Assembly (NCBI RefSeq): GCF_000421645.1
Contig: NZ_ATXK01000005.1
Span: 186,001-250,000 of the forward strand
DNA from: Aurantimonas coralicida DSM 14790
Lineage (GTDB): Bacteria; Pseudomonadota; Alphaproteobacteria; Rhizobiales; Rhizobiaceae
Length of the DNA stretch: 64,000 bases
Reading direction: 5' to 3'
The translations under genes and the position numbers were made by a program. Shown piece by piece: positions 12,401 to 29,713 of the stretch (the stretch's first letter is position 1; every line of letters starts with the position of its first letter). The notes below the pieces were generated by a model. It did not search any database and had not been told where the DNA came from. It saw nothing but the letters and a program-made list of their open reading frames with translations.

Positions 12401-13488
12401 TTTCGTCTCGCATATTCGAGGAAGTGATCGGCCACCCGGCCGGGCGAGGCGCCGTCGCCGAGATGATCGAGGACGGGTAGGATCATCTGCAGCCCCGCGG
12501 TGCGCGGGGCGTAGTGCGGATCGGCGGCCAGCGGCGACAGCCAGTCGACCCGCCAGGCGATGCGGGAGAGGCGGTTGACTGCGTCGACCATGGCCGCCGG
12601 CGAGCCGCGCTCGAGCCCGTCCGACACCACGGTCACCGCCGCGCCGCGCGCGAAGCCGGCGTAGCGCGGCACCGCGAGAAAGGCCTGCAGCGCTTCGCCG
12701 ATCCGCGTGCCGCCATCGAAATCGGCAACGGCCGCAGCGGCGCGGGGCAGCGCCTGTTCGGCGTCGGCCGGCTTCAGGGCCGCGGTGATCCGGGTGAGGC
12801 GGGTGCCCAGCGTGAACACTTCCGCCCGGTCGGCGGCCTGCACCAGCGCATGGCCGAGGCGGATCATGCCCTCGCTCTGCGCCTTCATCGAGCCGGAGAC
12901 GTCGATCAGCAGCAGAACCCGGCGCTGGCGCAACTTGCGGCGCGTCTCGTGCAGGCGCAGCACCTCGCCGTCGCGGCGGGCGGCCTCGCGCAGGGTCCGG
13001 CGCAGATCCATCCGGTCACCGTGCCGGGTTGCGCGCCGGCGATAGGACAGGCGGCGCGGCAGCGCGGCCGGCGCCTGCCGCAGGAGCCGCGCTGCGGCCG
13101 CGTCGTCGCGGCTGGCGATGCTGCGCGACGTCAGGCGCTCGGCCTCGGTCGCATCCGCCCCCGCCTCGCTCTCCTCGTCCCCGGCTTCGATGTCCTGCGT
13201 TCCGCCGGTCGGCTCGTGGGCTTCCGATTCCTCGTCCTCGGTCTCCGTCGGGGCCCGGATGACCTGATCGAGAAACACGGCGCGGAAGATCGCGTCGTAT
13301 TCGGCCACGCGTTCGGGCGGCACGGAAAACAGCGCCCGCCCGGCGCGCCAGATGTCGGTCATGTCCCGCGGGCCGAGAACGCCAACCGCCGCGATGAAGT
13401 CCACGGTCTGGTCGGGCGACACCGCAAAACCGGCCTGCCGCAGGGACGGCGCGAAGCGCAGGAACGGATCGAGCGCGCGCGGGGTCAT
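12397..13488 (-). CDS. CoxE-like VWA-domain protein
   Basis: The 363-residue protein has an N-terminal FRFAPSLRQAGFAVSP-type segment, an acidic linker (about 80-120), a basic patch and a C-terminal von Willebrand A domain with the MIDAS motif DVSGS (D196, S198, S200). This is the CoxE family (DUF1688-unrelated VWA_CoxE). CoxE works with the MoxR-type ATPase CoxD in maturing the active site of Mo-containing CO dehydrogenase. Here the partner is the gene just upstream (ATGA overlap), and the enzyme subunits lie just before that. A maturation role for this Mo hydroxylase is inferred by synteny. Confidence 0.9.
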   Translation of the reverse strand: MTPRALDPFLRFAPSLRQAGFAVSPDQTVDFIAAVGVLGPRDMTDIWRAGRALFSVPPERVAEYDAIFRAVFLDQVIRAPTETEDEESEAHEPTGGTQDIEAGDEESEAGADATEAERLTSRSIASRDDAAAARLLRQAPAALPRRLSYRRRATRHGDRMDLRRTLREAARRDGEVLRLHETRRKLRQRRVLLLIDVSGSMKAQSEGMIRLGHALVQAADRAEVFTLGTRLTRITAALKPADAEQALPRAAAAVADFDGGTRIGEALQAFLAVPRYAGFARGAAVTVVSDGLERGSPAAMVDAVNRLSRIAWRVDWLSPLAADPHYAPRTAGLQMILPVLDHLGDGASPGRVADHFLEYARRK

Positions 13489-14366
13489 GCCGCCTCGCCC
13501 GGCAGGATCGCCGCCAGCCGGTCCCGCACGTAGGAGAGGTCGTCATGGTCCTTCAGCGCCACCCCGATCGCGCGCGCGAAGGCGTCGGGCCAGCGAGCGC
13601 CCTGCGAATTCAGAAGCGTCGCGGCCTCGGCCCATTCGACGGTTTCGGCGACACCTGGCGGCTTGGCCAGCGGCTCCTGTCGCAAGAGGCCCACCGAGGC
13701 CACCACGGCCCGGGCCGTCGCTTCGGCGACGCGCGAGGCGCGGGTCATGACGATCCGGGCTTCGAGCTCCGGCGAGGGATAGTCGATCCAGTGATAGACG
13801 CAGCGGCGCCGCAGCGCCTCGTGCAGGTCGCGGGTGCGGTTCGACGTCAACGCCACGACCGGCGGCTGCGCCGCGCGCACCGTGCCGGTCTCGGGGATCG
13901 AGATCGTGAAGTCGGAGAGGAACTCCAGGAGGAACGCCTCGAACTCGTGATCCGCCCGGTCGATCTCGTCGATCAGCAGCAGCGTGCCGGTGGGATTGCG
14001 CAGCGCCGCCAGCAGCGGCCGTTCGAGCAGGTAATCTTCGGAATAGAGATTGACGTAGTCCTGACCCGCCTGCCGGATGGCCAGCATCTGCCTTGGATAG
14101 TTCCATTCGTAGAGCGCCGAGGCCGCGTCGATGCCCTCGTAGCATTGCAGCCGGATGACGCTGCGGCCGAGGACGCCGCCGAGCGCCTTGGCGGCCTCGG
14201 TCTTGCCGACCCCCGGCGCGCCTTCCAGAAGCAGCGGCTTGCCGAGCGCCAGCGCCAGATAGGCGGCCGTCGCCAGCGCGTCGTCGGCGATGTACTGGGC
14301 GCCGTCGAGCGCCGTCTGCAGCTCCGCGGGAGACGAGATGCCGGCTATGGTCGCCCGGGTCACCAT
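13485..14366 (-). CDS. CoxD-like MoxR AAA+ ATPase
   Basis: The 293-residue AAA+ ATPase has Walker A GAPGVGKT (49-56), Walker B LLLIDEID (about 129-136), a sensor-1 region ALTSNRTRDL and an arginine-rich LRRRCVYHW block. It belongs to the MoxR/CoxD group. CoxD-type proteins use ATP to remodel Mo-hydroxylase apoenzymes during sulfur and metal insertion. The start at 14366 shares one base with the stop of the Mo-subunit C-half gene. CoxE follows with a 4-base overlap, so the pair is translationally coupled. Confidence 0.9.
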   Translation of the reverse strand: MVTRATIAGISSPAELQTALDGAQYIADDALATAAYLALALGKPLLLEGAPGVGKTEAAKALGGVLGRSVIRLQCYEGIDAASALYEWNYPRQMLAIRQAGQDYVNLYSEDYLLERPLLAALRNPTGTLLLIDEIDRADHEFEAFLLEFLSDFTISIPETGTVRAAQPPVVALTSNRTRDLHEALRRRCVYHWIDYPSPELEARIVMTRASRVAEATARAVVASVGLLRQEPLAKPPGVAETVEWAEAATLLNSQGARWPDAFARAIGVALKDHDDLSYVRDRLAAILPGEAA

Positions 14367-15403
14367 CAGGCGGCGCGTCCTTTCGAGCGGGCCGGCGGCC
14401 GGGCGCCGCCCATCTCGCGCAGGCCGCGCAGGATCTTCTCCGGCGTGATCGGCAGCGTGTCGCAGCGCAGGCCGATCGCGTCGTAGATGGCATTGGCGAT
14501 GCCCGGCAGCACGGGGTTGGCGCACATTTCGCCCGGCCCCTTGCCGCCGAAGGGCGCATCCTCGGCCGGGCGTTCCAGGACGGCGATGTGGTGCGGCACG
14601 ACCTGGGCCGGCCCCGGCATCAGATAGTGGTTGAAGTCCGTCGCCCCGTGCCGGCGATCGGGATAATAGGGCTCGGTGGTCTCGTAGAGCGTGTGGCTGA
14701 CGCCCATCCACGCCCCGCCGATCAGCTGCTGCTCGACCAGTTTCGGATTGAGCGCCCGCCCCACCTCATAGGCGGAGTTGATCTCCTTCACCTCGACCTC
14801 GCCGGTCTCGTCGTCCACCTCCAGGTCGATGATGAGGGCCGCATGGGCGAAACAGGTCACCGGCGTCATCTCACCGGTCTCGGGGTCGGCGCTCGACGGC
14901 GGAATCAGGAAGATGCCGCGTCCTGACAGGGTGCGGCCCTGCTTGAACTGCGCGGCGATGGCCGTTTCGGCGACGGTGATCGCGCGGCCCGGCGCGCCCT
15001 TGACGTGGATGTTGCCCTTGCCGTCGGTCGTCAGGTCGCCGGCATCGACCTCCATCTCCTCGGCCGCCGCCTCCAGCATCTGCCGGCGCGCCTCGGCGCT
15101 CGCCCGGATCACCGCATTGCCGACCCGGTGCGTACCGCGCGAGGCGAAGGAGCCCATGTCGTGCGGGCCGGTGTCACTGTCGGCGGTGTCGACATAGACG
15201 TCCTCGATCGGCACGCCGAGGGTTTCGGCGGCGATCTGGCGCGACACGGATTTCATTCCCTGGCCGAGATCGATGGCGGACAGCGCCACCATGAACTTGC
15301 CGTCGGGCGTCGAATGAACCAGCGCCTGCGACGGGTCGCCGCCGAGATTCATGCCGATCGGATAATTGATGCAGGCAAAGCCCCTGCCCTTGTGAATGGT
15401 CAT
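14366..15403 (-). CDS. Xanthine dehydrogenase family molybdopterin subunit, C-terminal half
   Basis: The 345-residue polypeptide corresponds to the second half of a Mo-hydroxylase large subunit. It starts at KGRGFACINYP, carries the pterin-contact LGQGM (Q48) and ends with FGGKGPGEMC, whose Glu (E292) matches the catalytic base of the family. It lacks the GGxGGGFGGK and AMRGFG parts, which are on the gene just upstream. The ATG lies one base after that gene's TGA (TGACATG), so the two are translationally coupled. The two chains presumably assemble into one active site. Split Mo subunits are known, for example in nicotinate dehydrogenase. The substrate is unknown. Confidence 0.9.
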   Translation of the reverse strand: MTIHKGRGFACINYPIGMNLGGDPSQALVHSTPDGKFMVALSAIDLGQGMKSVSRQIAAETLGVPIEDVYVDTADSDTGPHDMGSFASRGTHRVGNAVIRASAEARRQMLEAAAEEMEVDAGDLTTDGKGNIHVKGAPGRAITVAETAIAAQFKQGRTLSGRGIFLIPPSSADPETGEMTPVTCFAHAALIIDLEVDDETGEVEVKEINSAYEVGRALNPKLVEQQLIGGAWMGVSHTLYETTEPYYPDRRHGATDFNHYLMPGPAQVVPHHIAVLERPAEDAPFGGKGPGEMCANPVLPGIANAIYDAIGLRCDTLPITPEKILRGLREMGGARPPARSKGRAA

Positions 15404-15404
15404 G

Positions 15405-17342
15405 TCATCGCCTCCGCGTGCCGGACAGGAAGGGCGAACTGCCGGGACGGCGCGTACCGCGGGAGAACGGCTTGTCGGGCCGATAGGGCTCGGGTTCGGT
15501 CGGTGCCGGCCGCTGGTAATGCGCATCGTGCGGCGCCCCGGTTGTCGAGGCGGGCGGCGAGCCCGGCGCCGGCTGCGTGCCGTAGGATGGTGACGCGGGC
15601 GGCGGAGCAGATCGCGCGGCCGGGGACGGCGCGGCTGGGGGCGGTGTCGGCCGGGGCGGCACGATACCGCCGCCGGTCTGGGACGCCGGCCGATAGGGCG
15701 CGGAAGGCTGTGCGGCGCCGGAGGCCGGGCCCATTGCGGCAGGCGGCGTCTCGCTACCCATCCGGTGGCCGATGCGGTCCGCCTCGATCTGCATGTCGGG
15801 GTTCTGCGGCGGCGCCGCGACGATGGTCGCGCCATGCTGGCCGGCCGGCACCCGGCCGCGGCCGTTTTTCGAAGGGGCGGTCGAGGCCGTGCGCCCGGCC
15901 CGGCGCTCGCCGATCCGGCCCTCGTCGTCGGTCACCGTCTCGGGGATCGCCACCCGCTCCGGCGTGCCGCCGCCCGTCAGCGACGATTGCGCCATCGCCT
16001 CCCCGGACAGCGGCCATTGCGCCTTGCCCGCCGCCACCTGGCAGCATTCGATCAGCGCGGTGTTCTTGGCCTTGCGCCGATGCGCCTTCATGTCGCCGTC
16101 GCGATAGGCGTTGAGGATGCGCAGCTCGATCGGGTCCATGCCGACGGCCTCGGCGACACGGTCCATCTGGCATTCGATGGCAAAATCCACCGCCGTGATG
16201 CCGAAGCCCCGCATCGCCGTCGCCGGGGTGCGATTGGTGACGCAGCAATAGACGTTGGACGCCACATTGGGGATGAAATAGGGGCCCGGCAGATGGCCGG
16301 TGCCCTTGACGATGGCGTAGGAGGACAGGCGCGTATAGGCGCCGCTGTCGAAGAAGCCGGTGAATTCGCGCGCGACGATGCGCCCGTCGGCCATCACGCC
16401 GTCCTTGAGCCGCCAGCGCTCGGCGCCGCGCGGCGCGCCGACCTGCATCTCCTCTTCCCGGTCCCAGGCAAAGCGCACCGGCCGCCCGGTCAGGATCGCG
16501 CCGAGAACGGCGGTCGGCTCGACGATGCTGTCGACCTTGCCGCCAAAGCCGCCGCCGGCCGTGCCGCCGATGAAATGCAGCCGCGAGGACGGGATGTCGA
16601 GGAGCTTGGCCGTGGTGCCGAGCGAGAAGAACAGCGCCTGCGTGTTGGTGTAGCAGACATAGCGGTCGTTCTGCTCGGGCGCCGCGATGGCCCCGCAGGT
16701 CTCGATCGGCGCCTGCTCGATCGGCGACATCTGGTACTCGGCCTCGACGATATGGTCGGCGCGGGCGAAGGCCGCGTTCACGTCGCCGAAGCGCAGCTTC
16801 TGGTGATCGTAGCGCTCGTGATAGTCGAAGCTGTTGTTGGGATAGACTTCGTTGACTACCGGCGCGCCGGGCTTCAGCGCCTCCTCGGGGTCGAGGACAT
16901 GGGGCAGCACCTCGTAGTCCACCCGCACCTGCGCCACCGCCTCGCGCGCCAGGCGTTCGGTGTCGGCGATCACCCAGGCCACCGTCTCGCCCTTGTAGCG
17001 AACCTTGTCATGGGCGCAGAGGGGCTCGTCGTCCTTGCCGAAATTGATCAGCGACAGCAGCGCGTTGAGGTTGTTCGGCACATCCCTGGCGGTCGCCACC
17101 CGGCGCACGCCCGGCATCCGCTCGGCCTCGCGCGTGTCGATCGAGCGGATGCGCGCATGGTGGTGGGGCGAACGGACGGCGCGCATGTGCAACAGGCCGT
17201 CGAACAGATGGTCGTCGTAATAGGGCGTGCGCCCGGTGACATGGCCGAGAATGTCCTGCCGGATGGTCGGCTGGCCGATCTCCTTCAGCGTGTCGTCGCG
17301 TTCGTCGGCGAACAGGTCCTTGCGGAACTCGATGCTGGTCAT
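15405..17342 (-). CDS. Xanthine dehydrogenase family molybdopterin subunit, N-terminal half with Pro-rich tail
   Basis: The 645-residue protein has a conserved Mo-hydroxylase region at residues 1 to about 443: the a/b hammerhead (TGRTPYYDDHLFDGLLHMRAVRSPHHHAR in outline), GGTAGGGFGGK (259-269) and AMRGFG (376-381). Residues 444-645 form a low-complexity tail rich in Pro, Ala, Ser and Arg, which replaces the usual direct continuation into the second Mo domain. The next gene encodes that domain. Homologous large subunits are normally one chain of about 750-800 residues. Overlap with the [2Fe-2S] gene stop (ATGA) fixes the start. The tail is in frame and free of stops, so it looks like a real extension, not a simple frameshift. 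Confidence 0.9.
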   Translation of the reverse strand: MTSIEFRKDLFADERDDTLKEIGQPTIRQDILGHVTGRTPYYDDHLFDGLLHMRAVRSPHHHARIRSIDTREAERMPGVRRVATARDVPNNLNALLSLINFGKDDEPLCAHDKVRYKGETVAWVIADTERLAREAVAQVRVDYEVLPHVLDPEEALKPGAPVVNEVYPNNSFDYHERYDHQKLRFGDVNAAFARADHIVEAEYQMSPIEQAPIETCGAIAAPEQNDRYVCYTNTQALFFSLGTTAKLLDIPSSRLHFIGGTAGGGFGGKVDSIVEPTAVLGAILTGRPVRFAWDREEEMQVGAPRGAERWRLKDGVMADGRIVAREFTGFFDSGAYTRLSSYAIVKGTGHLPGPYFIPNVASNVYCCVTNRTPATAMRGFGITAVDFAIECQMDRVAEAVGMDPIELRILNAYRDGDMKAHRRKAKNTALIECCQVAAGKAQWPLSGEAMAQSSLTGGGTPERVAIPETVTDDEGRIGERRAGRTASTAPSKNGRGRVPAGQHGATIVAAPPQNPDMQIEADRIGHRMGSETPPAAMGPASGAAQPSAPYRPASQTGGGIVPPRPTPPPAAPSPAARSAPPPASPSYGTQPAPGSPPASTTGAPHDAHYQRPAPTEPEPYRPDKPFSRGTRRPGSSPFLSGTRRR

Positions 17343-17818
17343 GCCGCGCCCCTCATCCGCTGGCTCGCCCTCATGACCGCGTCGATGATGGGTTCGTAGC
17401 CGGTGCAGCGGCACAGATTGCCGGAGATCGCCTCGGCCACCTCGTCGCGGCTGGGGCTGGGCTGCCGGTCGAGCAGCGCCTTGGCGGCCATCAGCATGCC
17501 GCTGGTGCAGAAGCCGCACTGGGCAGCGAACTCTTCCATGAAGGCCGTCTGGAGCGGGTGGAGCTGCGGCCCGCCGGCCAGCCCGCCGGTCGTGTCGATG
17601 CGTCGCCCCTCGACGGTTTCGGCCAGTGTCAGGCAGGCCAGATGCGGCTGGCCGTCGATCAGCACGGTGCAGGCGCCGCAGGTGCCCTGGGCGCAGCCCT
17701 GCTTGGGCGACAGATCGCCGGCGCCGCGCCGCAGGACGTCGATCAGGTTGGCGCCTTCGTCGACAAACAGCGCGGTCTCGGCGTCGTTCAACGTGAATCG
17801 GACGGGTGTCTTGGCCAT
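17339..17818 (-). CDS. [2Fe-2S] subunit of Mo hydroxylase
   Basis: The 159-residue protein has the two-cluster layout of the small subunit of xanthine dehydrogenase/CODH-type enzymes. The plant-type ferredoxin cluster uses C42, C47, C50 and C62 (GCAQGTCGACT...ACL). The second cluster uses C101, C104, C136 and C138 (QCGFCTSG and NLCRCTGYEPI). It passes electrons from the Mo site to FAD. The start at 17818 shares one base with the FAD-subunit stop; an upstream open frame to 17881 is unlikely to be used. The gene order FAD, FeS, Mo matches the CoxM-CoxS-CoxL order. Confidence 0.95.
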   Translation of the reverse strand: MAKTPVRFTLNDAETALFVDEGANLIDVLRRGAGDLSPKQGCAQGTCGACTVLIDGQPHLACLTLAETVEGRRIDTTGGLAGGPQLHPLQTAFMEEFAAQCGFCTSGMLMAAKALLDRQPSPSRDEVAEAISGNLCRCTGYEPIIDAVMRASQRMRGAA

Positions 17819-18609
17819 CAGCGCGCCTCCCTCAGCAACAGGCGCCGCAGATGCACCGGGGCGACCTCGCGCCGGTACCATTCGCTCGCCAGGGCGTCGT
17901 CGGCGGGGGCCAGCCCGTCGAGGCAGGCGGCGAGCGCGCCCTCGATGCCGGCCGGGTCCAGTGTGCGGTCCCGCAACGCGCGTTCCGCCGCCTTGGCGCG
18001 CAGCGGGGTCGGCCCCATGCCGCCGAAGGCGATCCGCGCGTCGGTGATGCGACTGCCGCCCTGCAGCCAGGCGGCGATGGACAGCATCGACACGCCCTTC
18101 GGCTTGACCCGGCTGATCTTGGCCCAGCGGAATTCCGAGGCCGTGGCGCGCGGCAGGATGACCGCCGTCACCAGTCCGCGCTGGCGGTCGCGGCCGGCAA
18201 GGAAGGTTTCCATCGGCTCGGTGGCACCACCGGCCATCTCGACCCGCGCATCCAGCGCCAGCAGCGCGGTGGCCAGGTCGCCATAGGGATGCGCCGCGAA
18301 GAGATTGCCACCGACCGTCGCCATGTTGCGGACGGCCGGCCCGCCGATCATCCGGGCTACCGGATGCAGGATCTCGGCGTCGCGCGCGGCGAGAAGATCG
18401 GCCATGGTCGCGCCGGCGCCGATCCTCAGGCCGGTGCCGTCGGAGCGGATCTCGCGGGGCATGGTGCGGGCCCGCACGATCCGGTCGAAGGACGGATCGG
18501 CGTAATTCACGCCGCGCATCACCAGCGTGCCGCCGGCCAGGAAGCGGGTGCGATCGCCCATCTGCCGGGCCGCCTCTTCAAGTGTCGCGCAGGTCTGAAC
18601 GCTCAGCAT
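17818..18609 (-). CDS. FAD-binding subunit of Mo hydroxylase (CoxM-like)
   Basis: The 263-residue FAD_binding_5-type subunit shows FLAGGTLVMRG for the FAD pyrophosphate and TVGGNLFAAHPYGD, the conserved TxGGN flavin motif. A C-terminal CO-dehydrogenase flavoprotein domain follows (ISRVKPKGVSM, RIAFGGMGPTPLRA). It accepts electrons from the FeS subunit and passes them to an external acceptor. The start at 18609 lies one base past the stop of an SRPBCC gene. A longer open frame to 18747 would overlap that gene and is rejected. Confidence 0.93.
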   Translation of the reverse strand: MLSVQTCATLEEAARQMGDRTRFLAGGTLVMRGVNYADPSFDRIVRARTMPREIRSDGTGLRIGAGATMADLLAARDAEILHPVARMIGGPAVRNMATVGGNLFAAHPYGDLATALLALDARVEMAGGATEPMETFLAGRDRQRGLVTAVILPRATASEFRWAKISRVKPKGVSMLSIAAWLQGGSRITDARIAFGGMGPTPLRAKAAERALRDRTLDPAGIEGALAACLDGLAPADDALASEWYRREVAPVHLRRLLLREAR

Positions 18610-18610
18610 G

Positions 18611-19048
18611 TCAGGCCCCCAGCTCGGTTCGGATCGCCTCGAAGCCGGCGACATAGATGCCGTCGCCGACCGCGGCCCCCAACTCGGCCTCCCGGCCCTT
18701 CGGCGTGTCGAAGCGGCTTTCCCAGTGCCAGAAGGTGGCGTCGCCATCGGTGACCGGGGACAGCCTTATGTGGGCGACGTAGTTGAGCAGCGGGATCGGC
18801 GTATCGAGCAGGCAGTAGGTCATCGACATCTCGGCATCCGACAGGGTCAGCAATTGCTCGCGCAGCTCCTCGCCGGTCTCGAGCCGGAAGCGGCGCACGG
18901 CCCCCACCTGGTCGGTCACGCGGCCGCGCTCGACCTGGCTGGTGGCGACCGCCGGGTGCCAGCGGTCGTGGCCGTTGAAATCGCGCACGATCTCCCAGAC
19001 CGCCTCGACCGGCGCCTCCAGAACGGTGCTGCGAACGACGTGAACCAT
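18611..19048 (-). CDS. SRPBCC family protein (second of a tandem pair)
   Basis: The 145-residue START/Bet v 1-like protein has VWEIVRDFNGHDRWHP, the typical first helix and ligand-mouth region of polyketide-cyclase-like SRPBCC proteins, followed by REQLLTLSD and MTYCLLD strands. Such proteins bind hydrophobic ligands. CoxG of the CO dehydrogenase system is a distant member that docks the enzyme to the membrane. Position between a flotillin and the Mo-enzyme genes allows either role. It is a diverged paralogue of the adjacent gene (9-bp gap). Confidence 0.85.
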   Translation of the reverse strand: MVHVVRSTVLEAPVEAVWEIVRDFNGHDRWHPAVATSQVERGRVTDQVGAVRRFRLETGEELREQLLTLSDAEMSMTYCLLDTPIPLLNYVAHIRLSPVTDGDATFWHWESRFDTPKGREAELGAAVGDGIYVAGFEAIRTELGA

Positions 19049-19057
19049 GAGCGCCGC

Positions 19058-19495
19058 CTAGCCCCCGAAATGCCGCTTGAGCGCGTCGAAACCGCCCTGG
19101 AACACGTTGCGGCCGGTGCCGGTGACGAGATCGCTCTCGTCCTTGGGATCGCAGCTGAATTCGGCCGACCATTCGGCGAAGCAGTGCCCCGTGTCGGTGA
19201 CCGGCGTCAGGCGCAGCGTCGCCATGTAGTCGGACCAGGGCTGCGGGCCGTCGAGCATGACGTAGGTGACGAACAGGTCGTAATCCGACATGCCGACGAG
19301 CTGCTCCCTGATGTTGTCGCCGCTCTGCAGGTGGAAGCTGCGGATGCAGCCGATCTTGTCGGAGGGCAGGGCGTCCTCGATGCGGCTGTCGCGAATGCGC
19401 GGATGCCATTTCGGCAGCGCGTTGAAGTCGCGGATCCGCTCCCAGACGCGGGACGCCTCGGCCGGAATGACCGAGCTGACATAGACCCTTGCCAT
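19058..19495 (-). CDS. SRPBCC family protein (first of a tandem pair)
   Basis: The 145-residue protein has the same length and layout as its neighbour. VWERIRDFNALPKWHP and REQLVGMSDYDLFVTYVMLD align with the corresponding blocks there, so the pair arose by tandem duplication. The fold is SRPBCC/START-like. It begins one base after the flotillin stop. The ligand or docking partner is unknown. Two copies may form a heterodimer or bind two pathway intermediates (inference). Confidence 0.85.
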   Translation of the reverse strand: MARVYVSSVIPAEASRVWERIRDFNALPKWHPRIRDSRIEDALPSDKIGCIRSFHLQSGDNIREQLVGMSDYDLFVTYVMLDGPQPWSDYMATLRLTPVTDTGHCFAEWSAEFSCDPKDESDLVTGTGRNVFQGGFDALKRHFGG

Positions 19496-19496
19496 G

Positions 19497-22400
19497 TCAG
19501 CGGCCCTCCTTCTTGTCGGCGGCGACCTTCGGCGCCTTGGCCCGCGCCGCTTCCGACGCCGCGCGGGTCATGTCGGAGGCGTTGCGGAAGATGTCGGACT
19601 TGGCGATGTTCGCCCCGTCGATGCCGATGTCGGAGAGGAGGCTGTCGACGAAGGGCGCCTGGACGCGGTAGCGCAGGGCCGAGTTCATCACCTCGTCCGT
19701 CGGGCTTGGACCCTGCCCGCCGCCACCACCGCTGGCGCCATTGCCGCTGCCGCCGCCATTCGCCCAGTCGAGGCCCTGTGTCCCCGACCCGCCGAGCTGC
19801 ATGATGCGGATGTCGTTGATCTTCTCCAGCGGCTTGACGCTGGCCGCCACGATGCCCTCCACATGCTCCAGCATCTTGCGTTTGAACAGGCTGGCGCGGG
19901 CGCCGTCGGTCAGGACGTTCTCGGCCTCGTTGATCAGCTTCTGCGCCTCGGCCTCGACCGCGGCACGGATCTTCTCGGCCTCGGCGCCGATCCGCTTGCG
20001 CTCGGCTTCCAGCTCGGCGCCGGTCACGCCGACCGTCTTGGCGCGTCGTGCCACCTCGCTTTCGGCCGTGGTCTTGACCTTCTCGCTGGCCTCGACGGCA
20101 CGGGCGCGGGCGTTCTCGGCCTCGACCGCGGCGGCGCTTTCATCCAGCGACTTGCGATAGAGCGCGATGGTCTTTTCCATCGTCGCTTCCTCGACAGCCC
20201 GTTCGCGGGCGATCTCCAGCTTGCGACGCTCGGCCTGATGGCCGATGCGGGCGTCGTCGAGACCGCGCTCCGAGGCGATCTTGGCGCGTTCGACCTCTTC
20301 CTGGCTGGCGATCTCGGCCTCGCGCAGCGCCTGCATGCGGGCGATCTCGAGCTGCTCCAGCACCTTGCGGCGCTCGAGCTTGCGGGAATCGAGATCCTGC
20401 TCGGCGAGGATCTTCTCGGCATCGACCGTCTTGGCCTTGGAGACGCGGGCCGCCTCGATCGCCTCGTCGGCGGCGATCTGCGCGGCATCCATCGCCTTGT
20501 TGCGCTCGATCTCCAGCTCGCGGATGCGGCGGTCGCGGGCGATCTTCTCGGCCGTGGTCTCCGCCTCCTTCTCGATCCGCTGGCCCTCGACCAGACGGCG
20601 CGAACTGATCTCGGCGGCCTCGATGGCCTCCTGGTGCTCGATCTCGCGGGAGCGGATTTCCGTGTCGCGGTCGATGGCGGCAGCGCGGGTGCGCTTCTCC
20701 TCGGCGATCCGGGCCGTGGCGATCGCCTCCTGCGCCGTCACGCTGGCAACGTCCACGGCGCGGTTGCGAGCGATTTCGCGCTCGCGCATGTCCTGCTCGT
20801 AGGCGATGCGCTCGGCCGCGAGCTTCTTCTCCTTGGCGATGCGCTTGGCCTCGACGGCCTCCTGCTTGGCAGTGTCGGCGAAGGCCACCGCCTGTTCGCG
20901 GGCCAGATCGCGCTCCTTGGTGCGCTCCTCGCTCTCGATCCGCTCGACCGAGGTGCGGGCCTCGGTGGCGATCCGGGCCTTCTCCACCGCCTCGCGCGAC
21001 GCGATCTCGGCTTCGTCGATGGCGCGGTTGCGGGCGATCTCCAGACCGCGGACCCGTTCCTCCTGTCCGATACGCTCCTTGGCCGTGGCCTCGGCGGCCT
21101 CGATCTCGGCGGCGTCGAGCAGGCGGCGGCGGGCAATCTCCAGCGCGCGGGTCTCCTGTTCGGAGGCGATCCGCTCGGCGGCAAGGGTCTTCTCGCGGGC
21201 AATCTTCGCGGCCTCGGTCGCCTGCTGCGACGCGATCTCCGCCTCTTCCAGCGCCTTCTTGCGCTCGATCTCCAGCGAGCGGGTCTCGCGGTCGGAGGCG
21301 ATGCGGGCGGCGCTGACGGCGCGTTCCTGGATGATGCGCAGCTTCTCGGCCGCTTCGCGGGCGGCGATCTCGGCCTCCTCGATCGCCAGATTGCGGGCGA
21401 TCTCGCGTTCCCGCGTCGCACGCTCCAGCGAGATGCGGGCCTCGCTGACCTCGTTCTCCTGAGCGATACGGGCCTTCTCGACGCTCTCCTTCGCGCTGAT
21501 CTCGGCTTCGTCCACGGCGCGCTTGCGGGCGATCTCGTTGGACTGGGTGTCCTGGTCCTTCTCGATGCGGGCGCGGGTCAGCTCGCGCTCCTGGGCGATG
21601 CGCGCCTTCTCGATCGCTTCGCGCGCGGCGATCTCGGCGGCGTCGGTGTCGCGCGTCGAGGTGATGCGGGTTTCCGACAGGACGCGCTCCTGCTGGATGC
21701 GGGCCTTCTCGATGGCCTCGCGGGTCGTGATCTCCGCTTCATCGATGATGCGGGCCCGCTCGATCTCGTGCTGGCGGATCGTCTGTTCGGACGCGATGCG
21801 CGCCTCGGCGATGCTGCGCTCGTTGGAGATGCGGGCCTTCTCGATGGCCTCGCGGTTCAGGAGGGTGGCCTCCTCGCCCTCCTTCTCGCGTTCGGAGCGT
21901 TCACGGGCCAGGTCGGCGCGCTGCTGGGCGCGGCGGAACTCGATCTCGCGCTCCTGCTCCAGCCGGGCGTTCTCGCTGTCGCGCTCGATCCCCAGCGACT
22001 GCTTCTCGGCCTCCAGATTGCGGGCGCGGATCAGGAGGGAGGTTTCCTGCTCGATGTCGTTGCGCATCTTGCGCCGGCTCTCGATCGCCTCGATGACGCT
22101 CGTCAGGCCCTCGGCATCGAAGCGGTTCGAGGGATTGAAGAACTCGATCTCGGTCTGGTCGATGTCGAGGATCGCGACGCTTTCCAGTTCGAGCCCGTTC
22201 TTGTCGAGCCCCTCCTGCGCGGTGGCGATGACCCGGCGCACATAGTCGCCGCGATGCTCGTGCAGTTCCTCGATCGTCATCTCCGCCGCGACGGTGCGCA
22301 GCGCCGAGACGAACTTGCCCTCCAGAAGCTGGTGGATGCGTTCGGGCTCCAGCGTGCGGCGACCGAGCGTCGAGGCGGCCAGGGTCACGCCCTCCCTGGT

Positions 22401-22715
22401 CTGGGCGACGCGGACATAGAAGGACGCCTCCACGTCGATCCGCATCCGGTCCTTGGTGATCAGGGCCCGCTCACGCTCGCGCGTGACGTTGAGGTCCATC
22501 GAGTTCATGTTGACGGGAGTGATGTCGTGGACGATCGGCCAGACGAAGGCGCCGCCGTCGATGACCACCTTCTCGCCGAGGAAACCGGTCCGCACGAAGG
22601 CGATTTCCTTGGTCGACCGCCGGTAGAGCCAGTTCATCACCCAGTAGAGGATGAACACGACGATGACGGCCAGGATGAGCCACAGGATGAGTTGTCCGAT
22701 GAGTTCGCCGGTCAT
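19497..22715 (-). CDS. Flotillin-like SPFH protein with giant hendecad coiled coil
   Basis: The 1072-residue protein is far longer than usual flotillins (roughly 450-700). Residues 5-26 form an N-terminal membrane anchor and 30-205 an SPFH/band-7 domain (VIDGGAFVWPIVHDITPVNMN, EELHEHRGDYVRRV). Residues 210-285 are charged helix, and 286-846 are 51 uninterrupted 11-residue repeats. Residues 847-970 are a flotillin-type C-terminal helix region (AEAEKIRAAVEAEAQKLI), about 974-1005 a Gly-rich linker, and the rest a short Ala/Lys-rich C-terminal region. Flotillins scaffold membrane microdomains. Here the gene is embedded in an uptake/catabolism operon, suggesting it organises the importer or the Mo enzyme at the membrane. 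GGGAGG precedes the ATG, which shares one base with the upstream TAA. Confidence 0.92.
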   Translation of the reverse strand: MTGELIGQLILWLILAVIVVFILYWVMNWLYRRSTKEIAFVRTGFLGEKVVIDGGAFVWPIVHDITPVNMNSMDLNVTRERERALITKDRMRIDVEASFYVRVAQTREGVTLAASTLGRRTLEPERIHQLLEGKFVSALRTVAAEMTIEELHEHRGDYVRRVIATAQEGLDKNGLELESVAILDIDQTEIEFFNPSNRFDAEGLTSVIEAIESRRKMRNDIEQETSLLIRARNLEAEKQSLGIERDSENARLEQEREIEFRRAQQRADLARERSEREKEGEEATLLNREAIEKARISNERSIAEARIASEQTIRQHEIERARIIDEAEITTREAIEKARIQQERVLSETRITSTRDTDAAEIAAREAIEKARIAQERELTRARIEKDQDTQSNEIARKRAVDEAEISAKESVEKARIAQENEVSEARISLERATREREIARNLAIEEAEIAAREAAEKLRIIQERAVSAARIASDRETRSLEIERKKALEEAEIASQQATEAAKIAREKTLAAERIASEQETRALEIARRRLLDAAEIEAAEATAKERIGQEERVRGLEIARNRAIDEAEIASREAVEKARIATEARTSVERIESEERTKERDLAREQAVAFADTAKQEAVEAKRIAKEKKLAAERIAYEQDMREREIARNRAVDVASVTAQEAIATARIAEEKRTRAAAIDRDTEIRSREIEHQEAIEAAEISSRRLVEGQRIEKEAETTAEKIARDRRIRELEIERNKAMDAAQIAADEAIEAARVSKAKTVDAEKILAEQDLDSRKLERRKVLEQLEIARMQALREAEIASQEEVERAKIASERGLDDARIGHQAERRKLEIARERAVEEATMEKTIALYRKSLDESAAAVEAENARARAVEASEKVKTTAESEVARRAKTVGVTGAELEAERKRIGAEAEKIRAAVEAEAQKLINEAENVLTDGARASLFKRKMLEHVEGIVAASVKPLEKINDIRIMQLGGSGTQGLDWANGGGSGNGASGGGGGQGPSPTDEVMNSALRYRVQAPFVDSLLSDIGIDGANIAKSDIFRNASDMTRAASEAARAKAPKVAADKKEGR
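20178..21860 (-). repeat. 51 x 33-bp (11-residue) repeats, organised mostly as 132-bp units
   Basis: Residues 286-846 of the flotillin divide without remainder into 51 blocks of 11, nearly all ending in I, V, L or M, with a second hydrophobic residue often at position 6 (for example REAIEKARI, AVDEAEI). Most blocks group into 44-residue units starting like xxREAIEKARI. Two units have 33 residues and the last has 55, so length changes occurred only in whole 11-mers. The period of 11 predicts a straight or right-handed coiled coil, not a heptad coil. Confidence 0.93.
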
Positions 22716-23563
22716 TACTGATCCCTCCCCGCTTCGGCCTTGCGGCCGATCATCTTGAACCGTCGCGTCTGTTCGGTGAGCGCGATTTCCGTCGGCAGCC
22801 GCTCCATCGAGGAGGCGCCGTAGAAGCCGTGGCAATTGGTGGTGTTGGCGAGGACGTATTCGGCGTCCTCGGGCTGGGCGACCGGGCCGCCATGGACGAG
22901 GACCAGCACGTCCGGATTGACCTCCAGCGCGGCATGCGCCAGCCGGTCGGTCACCGCCGGCGCATCCTGCAGCGCCACCCCGGTTGCCGCGCCGATCGCG
23001 CCGCCGGTGGTCAGGCCCAGATGCACGACGATGATGTCGGCGCCGGCCGCCGCCATGGCGCGGGCGTCGTCCTCGCAGAACACGTAAGGGGTCGTCAGCA
23101 TGTCCCGCGCATTGGCGAGGCGGATCATCTCGACCTCCAGCGCGTAGGACATGCCGGTCTCTTCGAGATTGGCGCGGAAGCTGCCGTCGATCAGGCCGAC
23201 GGTCGGAAAGTTCTGGACGCCGGAAAAGCCCGCCGCCTTCACCTCGTCGAGGAAGCGATCCATCATCCGGAACGGGTCGGTGGCGCAGACGCCGGCCAGG
23301 ACCGGCGTGCGCTTGACCACCGGCAGGACCTCGTTGCCCATCTCCATGACGATGGCATTGGCGTCGCCATAGGGCATCAGGCCGGCCAGCGAGCCGCGCC
23401 CGGCCATGCGGAACCGGCCGGAATTGTAGATGACGATGAGGTCGATGCCGCCGGCCTCCTCGCATTTGGCCGACAGCCCGGTGCCGGCACCGCCGCCGAC
23501 GATGGGCTCGCCCGCGTCGCGCATGGCGCGAAATCTCGTCATCAGGGTCTGGCGGTCGTGCAT
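22715..23563 (-). CDS. Phosphoenolpyruvate hydrolase family (TIM-barrel) protein
   Basis: The 282-residue protein matches the family annotated as PEP hydrolase or TIM-barrel signal-transduction protein. Landmarks are [23 protein letters not shown] near the N-terminus, [18 protein letters not shown] and the C-terminal [15 protein letters not shown]. Proteins of this group are regularly found next to UPF0261/Tm-1-like proteins, as here, where the Tm-1-like gene ends two bases upstream. The true reaction is not firmly known. It may act on a phosphoenol or lactate-like three-carbon unit, or serve as a regulator. The stop overlaps the flotillin ATG (TAATG). Confidence 0.85.
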
Positions 23564-23565
23564 GG

Positions 23566-25731
23566 TCAGGCTCTCCGGGACAGTTTCGACGGGCTTTGCG
23601 GGCGCGAATGCAGGCTGCGGAAGCTGCGCAGGATCTCCGCCGCGAAGGCCGGGTCGTTGATGTTGTGGGGGACGCGAACGAGCTTGCGGGACGCGGTCTG
23701 GCGCACCGTCTCTTCCAGCGCGGCGAACAGCGCGCGATCGGCGGCCGGGTCCCAGAAGGGCTGGCCCGGCGCATCGAGCGCCGAGACGCCGCCCTCGGGC
23801 AGGTAGAACCGCACCGGACCGTTCATGCGGTTGAGCTTCTCGCCGATGAAGCGGCCCATCTCGGCGTTTTCCGCCGGCGTCGTCCGCATCAGGGTGATCT
23901 GCGGATTGTGCTCGTAGAAGAGACGGTCGCGATAGCGCTCGGGCACCGTTTCGGGGGCGTTGAAATTGACCATGTCGAGGGCGCCGCAGGCGCCGATATA
24001 GGGCTGCCCGCTGGCGATCATCGCATCGAACCGGGTCTCATCGGCCGCAAAGACGCCTCCGGCGACCATGTCGCAGATCTCGGTGGTGGTCAGGTCAAGG
24101 ACCGCGCCGAGCATGCCGCTCGCCACGAGCTTTTCCATCGCTCGCCCGCCGGTGCCGGTGGCGTGGAAGACGAGGCAGTCATAATCTGCCTCCAGCTCCT
24201 TCACGACGGCCTGGACGCAGGTCGTGGTGACCCCGAACATGGTCAGGCCCACCGTCGGGCGGTCGGCTGCCGGGGCCGCGCTCGCCCGCGTCTTCACCAT
24301 GCCGGCGACGGCATTGGCGGCATTGGCCAGGACCTGCCGGGTGATGGTGTTGAGCCCCTGCACGTCGGCGACGGACGGCATCAGCGTGATGTCGGAGGCG
24401 CCGACATATTGCGCGGTGTTGCCGGAGGCGACGGTCGAGACGACGAGCTTGGGCACGCCGACGGGAAGGCTGCGGAAGGCCGGCGCCACCAGGGCCGTGC
24501 CACCCGACCCGCCGGCTGCCAGAAGCCCCGCGACATCGGTCTGGGCCCGCATCCAGCGCTCGAAGGCGAGGGTCATGCCCGCCACCGCACTGCCGCGGTC
24601 GCCGGTGAAGACGCCGGCGGCGCCGCGCGGATGGTGACCCGCCACGACATTGGGCGGCATATCGGCGCCCGACGGCTTGCCGCTGGTGGACAGGTCGACC
24701 ATGGCGACGCGCAGGCCGGCGGCCTTGACGATGTCGCGCATGTAGCGCAGCTCGGCACCCTTGGTGTCGAGCGTTCCGCAGACATAGACGGTGCCGCCCC
24801 GCGTCGCCGCGGGCGCCATCGGCCGGCCTGCCGTGGCCGGGGTCTCGGCCGGCGTCGTGACGGTGCGCGCGGCGCGTTCGATGACATGGACAGGCACGTT
24901 CGCCGACCAGCGGGTCGGGAGCTTCGGATTGGACAGATAGATGCGGACCGGGCCGCTCTCGGCCGGCGTCGCGGCCTCGCGGCGCGGCGCATCGGGCCCC
25001 GGCGTCTCGTCATGGGCGTGGCGTCCGACGCCGAGAAGCGCCTGCTGCAAGTCACGGTCGGCGGCGAGAACGCTCGCCTCCATCACCCGGTCGACCTTGC
25101 CGTTGATCATGATCGCGACGCGGTCGGCGACGGAACAGGCGACGCCGATATTCTGCTCGATCACCAGGACGTCGATGTCGCCTTCCTCGCCCAGACGGAC
25201 CAGCATTTCGGCGACCTGGTTGACGATCACCGGGGCAAGGCCCTCGGTCGGCTCGTCCATCACCAGAAGACGCGGATTGAGCAGCAGCGCCCGGCCGATG
25301 GCGAGCATCTGCTGTTCGCCGCCGGACAATTGCCCGCCGCCATTGCTGCGGCGCTCGGCCAGGCGCGGAAACACCGAATAGATGCGCTCCGGCGTCCAGG
25401 CGCCGCCCTTGGTGGCGACGAGCTGCAGATGTTCGTCGACCGTCAGCGAGCGCCACAGGCGGCGCCCCTGCGGGACGTAGCCGACCCCCATGCGCGCGAT
25501 CTCGGCCGGAGTGCGTCCGGCAATGGCCTGCCCGGCCAGCGCGATCGACCCGGCGCGCACCGGCACCAGGCCCATGATCGCCTTGCACAGGGTGGTCTTG
25601 CCCATGCCGTTGCGGCCGACGACCGACAGGATGCCGCCGCCGATGCGCAGGTTCACGCCCTGCAGGGCGTGGCTGTGGCCGTAATAGACGTTGAGGTCGC
25701 GGACCTCGAGGATGGGCGTACCCTCAGCCAT
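23566..25731 (-). CDS. LivF-type ABC ATPase fused to Tm-1-like (UPF0261) domain
   Basis: The 721-residue fusion has two parts. Residues 1 to about 245 are a LivF-type ABC ATPase with Walker [10 protein letters not shown], signature LSGGEQQ, Walker [12 protein letters not shown] and VIEQN. A linker of about 65 residues leads to a Tm-1-like/UPF0261 domain (about 310-715), recognisable by [52 protein letters not shown] and [14 protein letters not shown]. The first part energises the Liv-type importer. The second belongs to a two-domain nucleotide-binding family also found in the plant viral-resistance protein Tm-1. The start at 25731 overlaps the LivG stop by 8 bases. Direct fusion suggests the Tm-1 module acts at the transporter. 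Confidence 0.9.
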
Positions 25732-26503
25732 GCCCACCTCCCAGATACAGCGCCTGGACCTCGGGATCGTCCTCGATCTCGGCCGGCTTGCCTTCCTTGA
25801 AGACACGGCCGTTGTGCATCATCGTGACCCGCTCGCTGACCCTGAGGGCCACGTCCATGTCGTGCTCGATGATGATGAAGCCGACATGGCCCGGCAGGCC
25901 GGTCAGGATGCCGATCAGTTCGCGCCGCTCGGTCGGCGACAGGCCGGCGGCGGGCTCGTCGAACAGGATGAAGCGCGGTGCCCCCGACAGCGCCATGGCA
26001 ATCTCCAGCTGGCGCTGCTGCCCGTAGCTGAGATCGGCCACGGTCTGGTCCATCACGTCGCCCAGATTGACCGTGCGCACGAGATCTTCGGCGGTGGCGA
26101 CCAGCGCGTCGCGATTGCCCGGCCGGCGGAACGAGAACCGGCCGCGCGAGACGCCGCGGCAGGCCAGATAGACATTGTCGCGGACGCTCAGCCCGCTGAA
26201 TAGCAGCGATATCTGGTAGGTGCGCCGCAGGCCGCGCCGGATCCGCTCCTGGGCAGGAAACTCGGTCACGTCCTCTCCGAAGAAGCGGATCGCGCCGGTG
26301 GTCGGCGGAAAATCGCCGGTGATGCAGTTGAACAGGGTGGTCTTGCCGGCGCCGTTCGAGCCGAGCACCGCGTGGCGCTCGCCGGGGCGCACCTTCAGGT
26401 CGATGCCGCCCAGCGCCTCCAGGGCGCCGAAGCGTTTCGAGACGCCGCGCAGTTCGAGGGCGTAGTCGGCGCTGGCGCCGCGCGAGGGTGCGGCGGCGCT
26501 CAT
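25724..26503 (-). CDS. LivG-type ABC transporter ATP-binding protein
   Basis: The 259-residue ABC ATPase has Walker [25 protein letters not shown] (a signature variant typical of LivG, with Y for S/G), Walker [14 protein letters not shown] and the H-loop IIEHDMD. The C-terminal extension ([24 protein letters not shown]) is the usual LivG tail. It pairs with the LivF part of the downstream fusion as the two-ATPase motor. It overlaps both neighbours by 4-8 bases. The substrate is likely not a simple branched-chain amino acid, given the catabolic operon. Confidence 0.93.
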
Positions 26504-27555
26504 GGCGCCTGCCTCCGGTCGGTGCCGGTCAGCGGATCGCGATTGCGGCTCTCACGGAACTTGTCCCACATGCCGAGAAAGCCGTCGGGCGAGAAGAACA
26601 CGACGACCAGGAAGCCGATACCGACCAGGAGCTGGAAGCGCTCGCCCGACAGTCCGAGCGAGATCAGGACGTCGGTGGAGAAGGTCTTCAGAAGCACGTA
26701 GATCAGCGCGCCGATGAAGGCCCCGATCGGATGGCGCAACCCGCCGACGACGGCGATGACGAGAATGTCGATGGCCGGCTGGATGCCGACGGTGCCGGGC
26801 GAGATCTGCTGGCTCTGCCAGGTCAGGAGGATGCCGCCGACACCGGCGATCAGTCCCGCGAAGGCATAGGCCGCCACCCGGTGCGCGGTGACGTTGTAGC
26901 CCAGTGCCGCCATCCGGCGCGGATTGTCACGCACGCCCTGCAGCGCCAGGCCGAAGGGCGCGCGGCTGATGTAGAGGACGGCGAAATAACCCACCGCCGC
27001 CCAGAACAGCGACAGATAGTAGAACGGCACCGACTCGCGCCAGTTCACCCCGAACAGCTGCGGCGGCAGCACCGAGTTGAAACCCGAGAAGCCGTTGAAG
27101 ACGTCGTAGTTCTGGCGGGTGAAGTAGAAGAACGCCGCCGCGATGGCGAGGGTGATCATGATCGTGTAGATGCCCTCGGTCCGCACGGCGAGCCAGCCGA
27201 CGGCGGTGGAGAACAGCATGGTGATCGCCAGCGACAGCGGGATCACCAGCCACCAAGGCCAGCCCTGCGAGACCGCGCTGACGCCGCTCACGCCGAAGAT
27301 CGCGACGAGGTATCCGGCCAGTCCGGCGAAGGACATCTGCGCCAGGCTGACCATGCCGCCATAGCCGGCGAGGAACATCAGGCTCAGGGCGATGAGGCCG
27401 AGGACGAAGGCCCAGCCCATGATCTGGAACAGGAAGAAGCCCGAGGCGAAGGCCGGCATCACCAGAAGCAGCAGCCCGACCACCCAGTAGGCCGCGGGCA
27501 CCCGCTCGAGGCCCGAGGGCCGCGCCGTGACGGAGGGCCTGTCGATCGCCACCAT
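26500..27555 (-). CDS. LivM-type branched-chain-type ABC transporter permease
   Basis: The 351-residue polytopic protein has about 9-10 hydrophobic segments and the LivM landmarks FAGLAGYLVAIFG, TEGIYTIMITLAIAAAFFYF, AAYAFAGLIAGVGGILL and GGLRHPIGAFIGALIYVLL. It forms the inner-membrane channel with LivH. Its start is immediately adjacent to the LivH stop (no gap), and its stop overlaps LivG by four bases. The length is at the longer end for LivM, owing to an N-terminal extension. Confidence 0.93.
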   Translation of the reverse strand: MVAIDRPSVTARPSGLERVPAAYWVVGLLLLVMPAFASGFFLFQIMGWAFVLGLIALSLMFLAGYGGMVSLAQMSFAGLAGYLVAIFGVSGVSAVSQGWPWWLVIPLSLAITMLFSTAVGWLAVRTEGIYTIMITLAIAAAFFYFTRQNYDVFNGFSGFNSVLPPQLFGVNWRESVPFYYLSLFWAAVGYFAVLYISRAPFGLALQGVRDNPRRMAALGYNVTAHRVAAYAFAGLIAGVGGILLTWQSQQISPGTVGIQPAIDILVIAVVGGLRHPIGAFIGALIYVLLKTFSTDVLISLGLSGERFQLLVGIGFLVVVFFSPDGFLGMWDKFRESRNRDPLTGTDRRQAP

Positions 27556-28566
27556 CTAGGCGCGCCCCAGGAGGCCGTAGGGCCGGAAGGCCAGCACCAC
27601 GACCATGATCAGGAAGGTCAGCACCACCGCGTAGGTCGGAAAGTAGACCGAGCCGAACTGCTCGGCCATGCCAATCAACAGGGCCCCGAGCGCCGCGCCG
27701 GGGATCGAGCCCATACCACCGACGATAACGACGACGAGGGAGGCGAGGAGAAACCGCGTATCCTCGCCCGGCGCGACCGACTGGAAGGTGCCGCCCACCA
27801 CCCCGGCGACCCCGGCAAGGCCGGCCCCGAAGGCGAAGACACAAGCGAAAACGAGCTGGATGCGTACGCCGGTCGCCGACAGCATGTCGCGATCGTCGAC
27901 GCCGGCGCGCACCAGCATGCCGATCCGGGTCCGGTTGAGCATCAGCCACATGGCGAGGCCGACGACCACGGCGGCGAGGAAGATGACGATGCGCACGGAC
28001 GGATAGCGCAGGAAGATCAGCTCGCCGCGCCGGTCGTAGCCGGTGGTGAAGAAGGTATCGAGCGGCCCCGACAGCCATTGCGGCGGGGTGATGTTGTAGA
28101 AATCGCCGCCGAAACTCCACAGCATCAGGTCTGCCAGAACGATCGAGATGCCGATGGTCACGAGGGTCTGGCGCAGATCCTCCCCCTCCATCCGGCGGAA
28201 GACGAAGATCTGCATGAGAACGCCGATCAGGCCGACGATGATGAAGGCCACCGGGAAGGCCAGCAGCCACCAGCCGGTGATGTCGGCGGTGTAGAAGCCG
28301 ACATAGCCGCCGATCAGGTAGAGCGAGCCATGGGCGAGATTGACGTTGCGCATCAGGCCGAAGATCAGGGTGAAGCCCGACGCGACGAGGAAGTAGAGCC
28401 CGCCGAGGGTGACGCCGTTGAACAGCGCGTTGAGGAAGATCTTCTTGCGACCGATGACGTCTTCGAGGCCCTCGGGCCAGACGGCGAAGATCGCCCACAG
28501 GAGGACGACCGCCAGGATCGCCAGGATCGCGGTCCAGATCGGATGCCGGGTCGCAAAGACCCTCAC
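27556..28566 (-). CDS. LivH-type branched-chain-type ABC transporter permease
   Basis: The 336-residue protein has NALFNGVTLGGLYFLVASGFTLIFGLMRNVNLAHG, the very characteristic LivH start region, and GGMGSIPGAALGALLIGMAEQFG near the C-terminus. The frame is open to a TTG at 28599, but a GTG at 28566 is preferred because GGAGGG lies about 8 bases upstream. About eight membrane segments are visible, with an extra N-terminal helix (IWTAILAILAVVLLWAIFAVW). It heads the tightly overlapping gene run that ends with the MBL lactonase. Confidence 0.9.
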   Translation of the reverse strand: MRVFATRHPIWTAILAILAVVLLWAIFAVWPEGLEDVIGRKKIFLNALFNGVTLGGLYFLVASGFTLIFGLMRNVNLAHGSLYLIGGYVGFYTADITGWWLLAFPVAFIIVGLIGVLMQIFVFRRMEGEDLRQTLVTIGISIVLADLMLWSFGGDFYNITPPQWLSGPLDTFFTTGYDRRGELIFLRYPSVRIVIFLAAVVVGLAMWLMLNRTRIGMLVRAGVDDRDMLSATGVRIQLVFACVFAFGAGLAGVAGVVGGTFQSVAPGEDTRFLLASLVVVIVGGMGSIPGAALGALLIGMAEQFGSVYFPTYAVVLTFLIMVVVLAFRPYGLLGRA

Positions 28567-28666
28567 GTCTCGGCCCTCCGGCCGGTCCGTGCCTGGCAAA
28601 CCTCAGGTCGCGTCACAAAGATCACGGCTCATCTCCCCCGAGCCAATGGCTCTTCAGGGACAGATG

Positions 28667-29554: not shown

Positions 29555-29713
29555 TTCGTGATCCTCCCGATCAACGACGGCCGCGCGGCTTCTCCCTCCG
29601 CTTCGACCGGCCAATTATCGGGCCATGTTCCGCGCGGCCAGACAAGTTCGAAGAACAAAGAAACAGACTTTGCGGTATACAGCGCAGGACGGTCGCGAGT
29701 GCTTCAAACGTGC

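Follow-up and report, generated by a model that had tools for sequence, protein, structure and literature searches.

Giant bacterial flotillins have been known since 2009, when SPFH2b p-flotillins of 800-1000 aa with a strongly expanded coiled-coil region were described (Hinderhofer et al. 2009, PMC2636767). NfeD2 partners are given there as usual for SPFH2 proteins, with some exceptions, and the passages of that paper on SPFH2b mention neither an 11-residue unit nor conservation of phase, an operon with UPF0261, SRPBCC and Mo enzyme genes, or an enzyme tail. For human flotillin, the wall has been described as a right-handed barrel of 44 helices, 186 residues long, without heptads and 22 nm high (PMC11260169). 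Since heptads were found missing from the human wall, part of the hendecad idea developed below is already implicit in print. In the open-licence literature, the 2009 paper was the only one we found on giant flotillins; we found no paper treating hendecads together with flotillin, and none recording the 11-residue rule, the fact that it extends to short flotillins, or the single phase slip reported here. Hendecad families were reportedly surveyed in 2023, and the flotillin rule may have been mentioned there before.

The gene described here lies in a stretch of 64,000 nucleotides (hereafter the window) from Aurantimonas coralicida DSM 14790. It encodes a flotillin of 1072 aa (19497..22715, minus strand; Pfam Band_7 and Flot), whose start codon shares letters with the stop codon of the gene before it (TAATG). 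A predicted N-terminal membrane helix (residues 3-34, 22614..22709, minus; from the AlphaFold2 helix H3-34 and the hydrophobic sequence) precedes the SPFH/Band_7 domain (residues 41-189, 22149..22595, minus; PF01145, 65.8 bits; fold matches to prohibitin, flotillin and stomatin), and the Arg/Lys residues after this helix suggest that the remainder of the protein is on the cytoplasmic side. An array of 51 hendecads follows (residues 286-846, 20178..21860, minus), the amplified part of the wall, and then the C-terminal flotillin domain PF15975 (residues 900-1032, 19620..20018, minus; 113.2 bits), which takes in the ENVLTD anchor and a Gly-rich linker. From the SPFH end to the Flot anchor the wall measures 737 residues, or 67 units, about three times the usual length (231-275 residues in 59 of the 61 distinct short flotillins). 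An antisense open frame of 1075 aa (19494-22721, plus strand) spans the whole gene and is probably a by-product of the GC-rich repeats.

With both Band_7 and Flot domains present, the protein belongs to the SPFH2 flotillins, and its 1072 aa fall in the SPFH2b size range (~800-1000 aa or more); as far as the passages of PMC2636767 describe that group, it is almost certainly of the same kind. An earlier note on this DNA had described a membrane-attached protein far beyond normal flotillin size. The attachment, by a predicted anchor, and the unusually long wall hold, but giants of this sort were already on record (PMC2636767). The FloT equivalog model NF058507 gave 31.6 bits, below its bar of 700. 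An NfeD2 partner, usual for SPFH2 proteins according to the same source, was not found: PF07290 (YqiJ/YuaF-like) is absent from the organism's own genome, where the sole PF01957 match adjoins a different SPFH gene.

Hendecads and the length of the wall

Residues 286-846 split exactly and without interruption into 51 blocks of 11 residues, on the coordinates that the earlier note gave (21860-20178 of the window). Its statement that each block ends in a hydrophobic residue is right for 50 of the 51 (Ile in 45), the exception being block 30, with Thr. Column 6 holds I, V, L or M in 38 blocks, Ala occupies columns 1, 5 and 9 in 27, 22 and 28 blocks, respectively, and the array is rich in Glu, Arg, Lys and Ala. 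Hydropathy power reached 708.7 at a period of 11/2 and 705.0 at 11/4, with a maximum of 128.8 in 300 shuffles, and the peaks at 11/3 and 11 (91 and 90) lay below the largest shuffle value. We also searched for the 7-residue pattern that the note had named as evidence against its reading and detected none, the hydropathy power at 3.5 being 6.2. A heptad coiled coil was rejected, as there was no peak at 3.5 and length differences between homologues were multiples of 7 at chance level (7 of the 52 independent pairs described below, 7.4 expected). On a helix, the large hydrophobic residues form two ridges, of Ile, ~131 degrees apart, together with a stripe of Ala, and a single register runs from about residue 223 to residue 838. 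The 44-residue unit that the note had also proposed exists as a super-unit (identity 0.39 at lag 44, 0.24 at lag 11, 0.12 on average over lags) but is regular only in about the first half of the array. The two most similar 44-residue units in the window gene are 70% identical in DNA; a recent tandem duplication was rejected on this ground, and the hendecad blocks are therefore old.

Wall length was compared across homologues from several samples. The 69 loci from named genomes were found with the SPFH part of the window protein and are hence close relatives. Searches with PF15975 (E 0.001) matched 84 of 297 genomes in the order, 61 of 385 in the class and 51 of 398 in the phylum, and a subset of these matches was used, consisting of 30 loci (~2 kb, with long genes incomplete) and 100 regions; E. 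coli flotillin was sampled as well, YqiK entering twice. Profile anchors outside the array delimited the walls: at the SPFH end the F of FDAEGL, and in the Flot domain the ENVLTD motif. The 184 open frames scored gave 175 rows after removal of identical walls and of rows without both anchors, 174 of them distinct. These span 231 residues (21 units) to 927 (84 units plus 3 residues; the wall alone of L069), and their length modulo 11, relative to the window, is 0 in 104, 3 in 66, 7 in two, 6 in one and 8 in one. Class 0 accounts for 59 of the 61 distinct walls shorter than 330 residues, with L174 in class 3 and L162 in class 7; the rows outside classes 0 and 3 are L093, L140, L162 and L163. Two of these, L162 and L163, share class 7 with walls of 326 and 348 residues, 22 apart, and a different phase offset. 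An earlier count with pairwise anchors in 77 proteins placed 44 in class 0, 30 in class 3, two in class 2 and one in class 8; the two in class 2 (L020 and L030) move to class 0 with the profile anchors, which are used throughout. As controls, a distance across the Gly-rich linker occupied all 11 classes (139 of 175 rows scored), and a distance measured within the SPFH part hardly varied (112 in 147 of 154) and was uninformative.

The SPFH parts were placed on a FastTree tree with 174 tips, from which 52 independent pairs differing in wall length were taken; 43 of them differ by an exact multiple of 11, with 4.7 expected (binomial p 2.6e-36 against one in eleven, the classes being assumed equally likely). 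The excess is present in pairs of short walls (9/10) and of long walls (30/37), and of the nine pairs off the rule, eight deviate by 3 more or less and one by 6. Parsimony requires at least 77 changes of wall length, at least 10 of them not multiples of 11; as this reconstruction is ambiguous, we prefer the independent pairs. The wall changes nearly always by whole 11-residue units, besides one recurring 3-residue shift. The claim that length varies in elevens, against which indels of other sizes in homologues had been set as the counter-evidence, thus survived the comparison of repeat number across homologues, holding in most of them, with the 3-residue shift as an addition to it.

The 3-residue shift has a fixed place. 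In a phase scan that counted a phase when present in at least two windows, all 65 class-3 walls of at least 330 residues run in phase 0 and then in phase 8, which occupies the six to eight scored windows directly preceding the C-part, and all 45 class-0 walls of at least that length hold phase 0 alone. This slip occurs two times in L140, which belongs to class 6, whereas L093, L162 and L163 do not fit the scan pattern. A single slip of phase, close to the C-end of the array, thus accounts for long class 3. The class as a single clade was not supported, the best FastTree clade containing 40 of its 66 members and three others. A cap-side motif was recognized in 82 of 93 giants; in 80 of these the stretch between it and the anchor measures 84 residues, and this constancy places the length of the giants in the N-half array.

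The same register is found in ordinary flotillins. In short flotillins (60 class-0 rows, YqiK twice), the N-half of the wall follows the register of the giants, with large hydrophobic residues at 0.70 in column 11 and 0.63 in column 6 and charged residues at 0.76 in column 10, while the C-half differs in being rich in Ala and Glu. Speaking against a shared register, the mean hydropathy spectrum of short walls lacks a peak at 11/3 (0.29, under the shuffles) and peaks only near 11/5, 11/4 and 11/2, and 13 of the 60 rows have no phase in two windows of the scan. E. coli YqiK (553 aa, L104) resembles the giants in its SPFH domain, of the same profile, and in its anchors, has a wall of 242 residues (class 0) and shares their register over a few hendecads, but its wall has 22 units as against 67 and its partner YqiJ adjoins it. 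In our reading, the giant wall arose by multiplication of hendecads that are ordinary in short flotillin walls, probably in that direction.

Two explanations for the conservation of phase were weighed. The earlier note attributed it to selection, and selection for helix phase between base and cap is, in our judgment, quite probably the cause: the base and cap-side parts are phase-fixed over hundreds of residues in most giants. Alternatively, a mutational bias could be responsible, with unequal recombination between repeats preserving the register, and with it the phase, without selection. The giants do have internal DNA repeats (the longest exact one in the window gene is 28 bp), and in the DNA of 93 giants the identity excess amounts to 0.155 at a lag of 44 residues and 0.096 at one of 11. 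Exchange at the best DNA lag, 44 residues, would favor multiples of 44, yet only 8 of the 43 multiples of 11 are such (chance 1 in 4). In addition, 59 of the 61 distinct short flotillins follow the rule with a longest exact repeat of 9-16 bp in 60 of 61. Because short walls are poor in repeats yet abide by the rule, recombination is not the whole story; their weak DNA excess at lag 11 (0.05) leaves it a small chance, for the giants in particular, and as the explanation of the phase we consider it unlikely.

Form of the assembly

We give a probability of about 0.6 to the reading that the giant flotillin is a closed, many-subunit barrel with a long wall, anchored in the membrane, lengthened by whole hendecads and holding proteins of the operon. 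The human flotillin-1/2 cage (9bq2, 9l3g) is alike in its SPFH base and in its charged, non-heptad helical wall, and its barrel and cap, which for the giant flotillin are presumed, have been shown directly (PMC11260169). As the human protein forms a single-layer helical barrel, we read the array as a lengthened barrel wall and less as a rod, and the two Ile ridges with the Ala stripe would suit a helix that has a neighbor on each side. With residues 1-285 as the query, the nearest solved structure in phmmer was Flotillin-1 (9bq2_B, 3.4e-8); the full-length window flotillin gave four weak phmmer matches, with no flotillin among them. AlphaFold2 single-chain models were used only for secondary structure and fold matches. 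The window monomer is modelled, with low confidence (mean pLDDT 60), as helical at residues 205-356, 375-570, 607-878 and 886-933, and the model of L098, a short-walled relative, has a mean pLDDT of 66. In Foldseek, the best match of the L098 model was 9bq2_B (E 1.9e-12; low TM-scores of 0.25/0.33), and prohibitin and flotillin tied for the window model (2.2e-8; low TM-scores of 0.10/0.25).

Hendecads are the general basis of straight or right-handed coiled coils, a property that would fit a rod in which two to four parallel chains form a right-handed stalk and space the C-terminal domain from the membrane, as would the single Ala stripe at 11/3 (8.3 as against 2.3 in shuffles). A rod has, however, one core stripe, unlike the two ridges seen here and the hydropathy power of 91 at 11/3 as against 709 at 11/2, and the best fold matches include SPFH proteins that form rings and cages (PMC11260169 for flotillin); we therefore regard the rod as improbable. 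A monomeric rigid spacer in the form of a single charged alpha-helix would agree with the Glu/Arg/Lys/Ala-rich composition, but hardly with Ile at column 11 in 45 of the 51 blocks or a large hydrophobic fraction of 0.89 at this column over the 93 giants. We know of no single charged helices with such hydrophobic ridges and give this form very little weight. For the earlier note, which had proposed a long spacer or scaffold rod, the outcome is mixed: its observation is borne out and the long wall on a membrane anchor stands, but a barrel wall appears likelier than its rod geometry, and giants as such are not new.

In the barrel reading, each subunit would be held at the inner membrane by its N-terminal helix and SPFH domain, as sequence and family suggest; human flotillin-1/2, by comparison, is held by a lipidated hydrophobic surface. 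One very long helix per subunit would then run in the closed wall and end in a C-terminal cap, as in human flotillin 9bq2. The wall, whose register is shared with short flotillins, would have lengthened by multiplication of the hendecads in the first half of ordinary walls. Eleven residues make three turns at 3.67 residues per turn, so that addition of whole hendecads would keep the faces that touch neighbors aligned between SPFH ring and cap, which may be why length changes in elevens. At 0.15 nm per residue, the 561 residues of the array measure at most 84 nm and the 737 of the wall at most 111 nm, and tilt shortens both; the 84 nm of the earlier note is thus correctly computed for a straight helix and sets a ceiling on the height of the array. 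We infer both oligomer number and barrel height by analogy, and the result would be a membrane-based tower of up to ~80-110 nm, compared with 22 nm for human flotillin.

Operon and the split Mo-hydroxylase

The flotillin gene is part of an operon on the minus strand of the window. Upstream of it are genes for an AraC-family regulator (28667..29614), a LivH-type permease (27556..28599), a LivM-type permease (26500..27555), a LivG-type ABC ATPase (25724..26503), a LivF-type ABC ATPase fused to UPF0261 in one open frame (23566..25731) and a PEP_hydrolase-like TIM-barrel protein (22715..23563). UPF0261 is an N-terminal domain of plant Tm-1-like proteins (PMC5028733). Downstream are two SRPBCC-type proteins of the Polyketide_cyc2 family (19058..19495 and 18611..19048) and the Mo-hydroxylase, with its FAD subunit (open frame 17818..18747, true start probably ~18609), its [2Fe-2S] subunit (open frame 17339..17881, true start probably inside) and a large subunit in two halves, the first with a Pro-rich tail ending in SGTRRR (15405..17345) and the second at 14366..15403; a CoxE-like VWA protein (12397..13488) and an amidohydrolase (11525..12400) follow. 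The order AraC, LivH, LivM, LivG, LivF-UPF0261, PEP_hydrolase, flotillin, SRPBCC, SRPBCC, FAD, FeS, Mo recurs in most of the 69 loci, and the importer, SRPBCC and Mo enzyme genes that the earlier note placed beside the flotillin are thus a conserved neighborhood. Many of these loci are incomplete; within them we counted UPF0261 in 67 (fused to LivF in 66), PEP_hydrolase and LivG in 65 each, LivM in 62, LivH in 59, AraC in 53, SRPBCC1 in 62, SRPBCC2 in 59 and FAD, FeS and Mo first half in 57 each. L097 has no match to UPF0261 or PEP_hydrolase, and L100 has none of the operon genes in the 7 kb before its incomplete flotillin.

The neighborhood follows wall length. Among the 100 fetched loci, SRPBCC1 lies beside the flotillin in 3 of 45 with short walls, 17 of 20 with walls of 330-500 residues and 34 of 35 with walls of at least 500, and UPF0261 lies near it in 3/45, 17/20 and 28/35, respectively. 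An FAD gene after the flotillin was seen for 29 of the 35 walls of at least 500 residues and for 0 of the 65 others (flanks of ~1-2 kb). Mo linkage and a wall above ~500 residues usually occur together. A giant wall is not required for the core operon, since four flotillins of the operon family (L098, L195, L157 and L196) are short-walled, with no Mo enzyme seen in the available flanks; L098, from Pollutimonas, which we take to be a betaproteobacterium, has the core operon and no Mo genes within its 14.6 kb. In six mid-length operons with wider flanks, the second SRPBCC lies within a frame of 491-532 residues. This frame was a fusion to a zinc-binding dehydrogenase in both of those scanned (L220:11460-12992 and L217:9563-11050), in the place where most giants have the Mo-hydroxylase downstream.

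The split of the large subunit recurs: none of the frames at the 57 matching loci scores above 100 bits for both halves, the second half being seen in 34 (many loci are incomplete). The large subunit of the nicotinate dehydrogenase of Eubacterium barkeri is also split. At the named loci, a low-complexity tail rich in Pro and Ala closes the first half; measured from the ECCQV site, in copies where this site was located, it has 115-214 residues (214 in the window). All 41 complete flotillin-linked copies end in RRR or RKR (13 of the 54 are incomplete), with Arg at the last and third-last positions in 41, Gly at -5 in 37 and Ser at -6 in 36; the commonest end, in flotillin-linked clusters including L035-L103, is SG(F/L/T)RRR. 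Nine clusters not linked to a flotillin (53-61% identical) have the large subunit split alike but no tail and no RRR or RKR end (0/9). Elsewhere in five of their genomes there is an operon flotillin, its wall 410 residues long in four (G209, G105, G247 and G087) and 534 in G120. As these tail-less enzymes are more distant relatives, tail and linkage may share no more than ancestry. Matches to the first half numbered 50, and for 36 of them a flotillin match was located within 12 kb. The remaining 14 include five copies of 69-76% identity; the genomes of four carry a long flotillin frame on a separate contig, and in that of the fifth (G262) no such frame was found. Tail length may scale with wall length: over 37 of 42 tails, five having no wall value, Spearman was 0.58, uncorrected for descent. 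Independent contrasts gave r 0.36 (p 0.028), and independent pairs were seven for such scaling and five against, with two ties.

The locus resembles the cox clusters in having Mo-hydroxylase subunits with SRPBCC (CoxG) and VWA (CoxE) neighbors, and differs in that the large subunit is split, its first half is tailed and a flotillin is present; CoxG has been proposed to bring CO dehydrogenase to the membrane (PMC4240915, in the parts of that paper that treat these genes). By this analogy, a docking role for the tail and the SRPBCC pair is a reasonable guess. The tower would most likely hold the SRPBCC proteins at the membrane and, in giants, also the split Mo-hydroxylase through its tail and terminal peptide. 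The fuller proposal is tentative and, to us, on the doubtful side: a cytoplasmic, membrane-based compartment in which hendecad number sets the height of an enzyme-loading tower and the docking peptide of the tail holds the Mo-hydroxylase in or on the barrel, with the SRPBCC proteins as carriers. Its logic would be comparable to that of encapsulin cargo loading.

These data touch on two open questions, namely the contents that bacterial flotillins enclose and the way in which the size of SPFH cages is set. A wall of 21 to 84 units that changes mostly in whole-hendecad steps offers a direct genetic handle on assembly, and the predicted cage would be several times taller than SPFH cages of published heights (22, 16.5 and 11 nm). 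The tailed Mo enzyme is a concrete candidate client of a flotillin cage. Collectively, this suggests that these bacteria build membrane-anchored cages of adjustable height beside a metabolic enzyme with a tether of its own.
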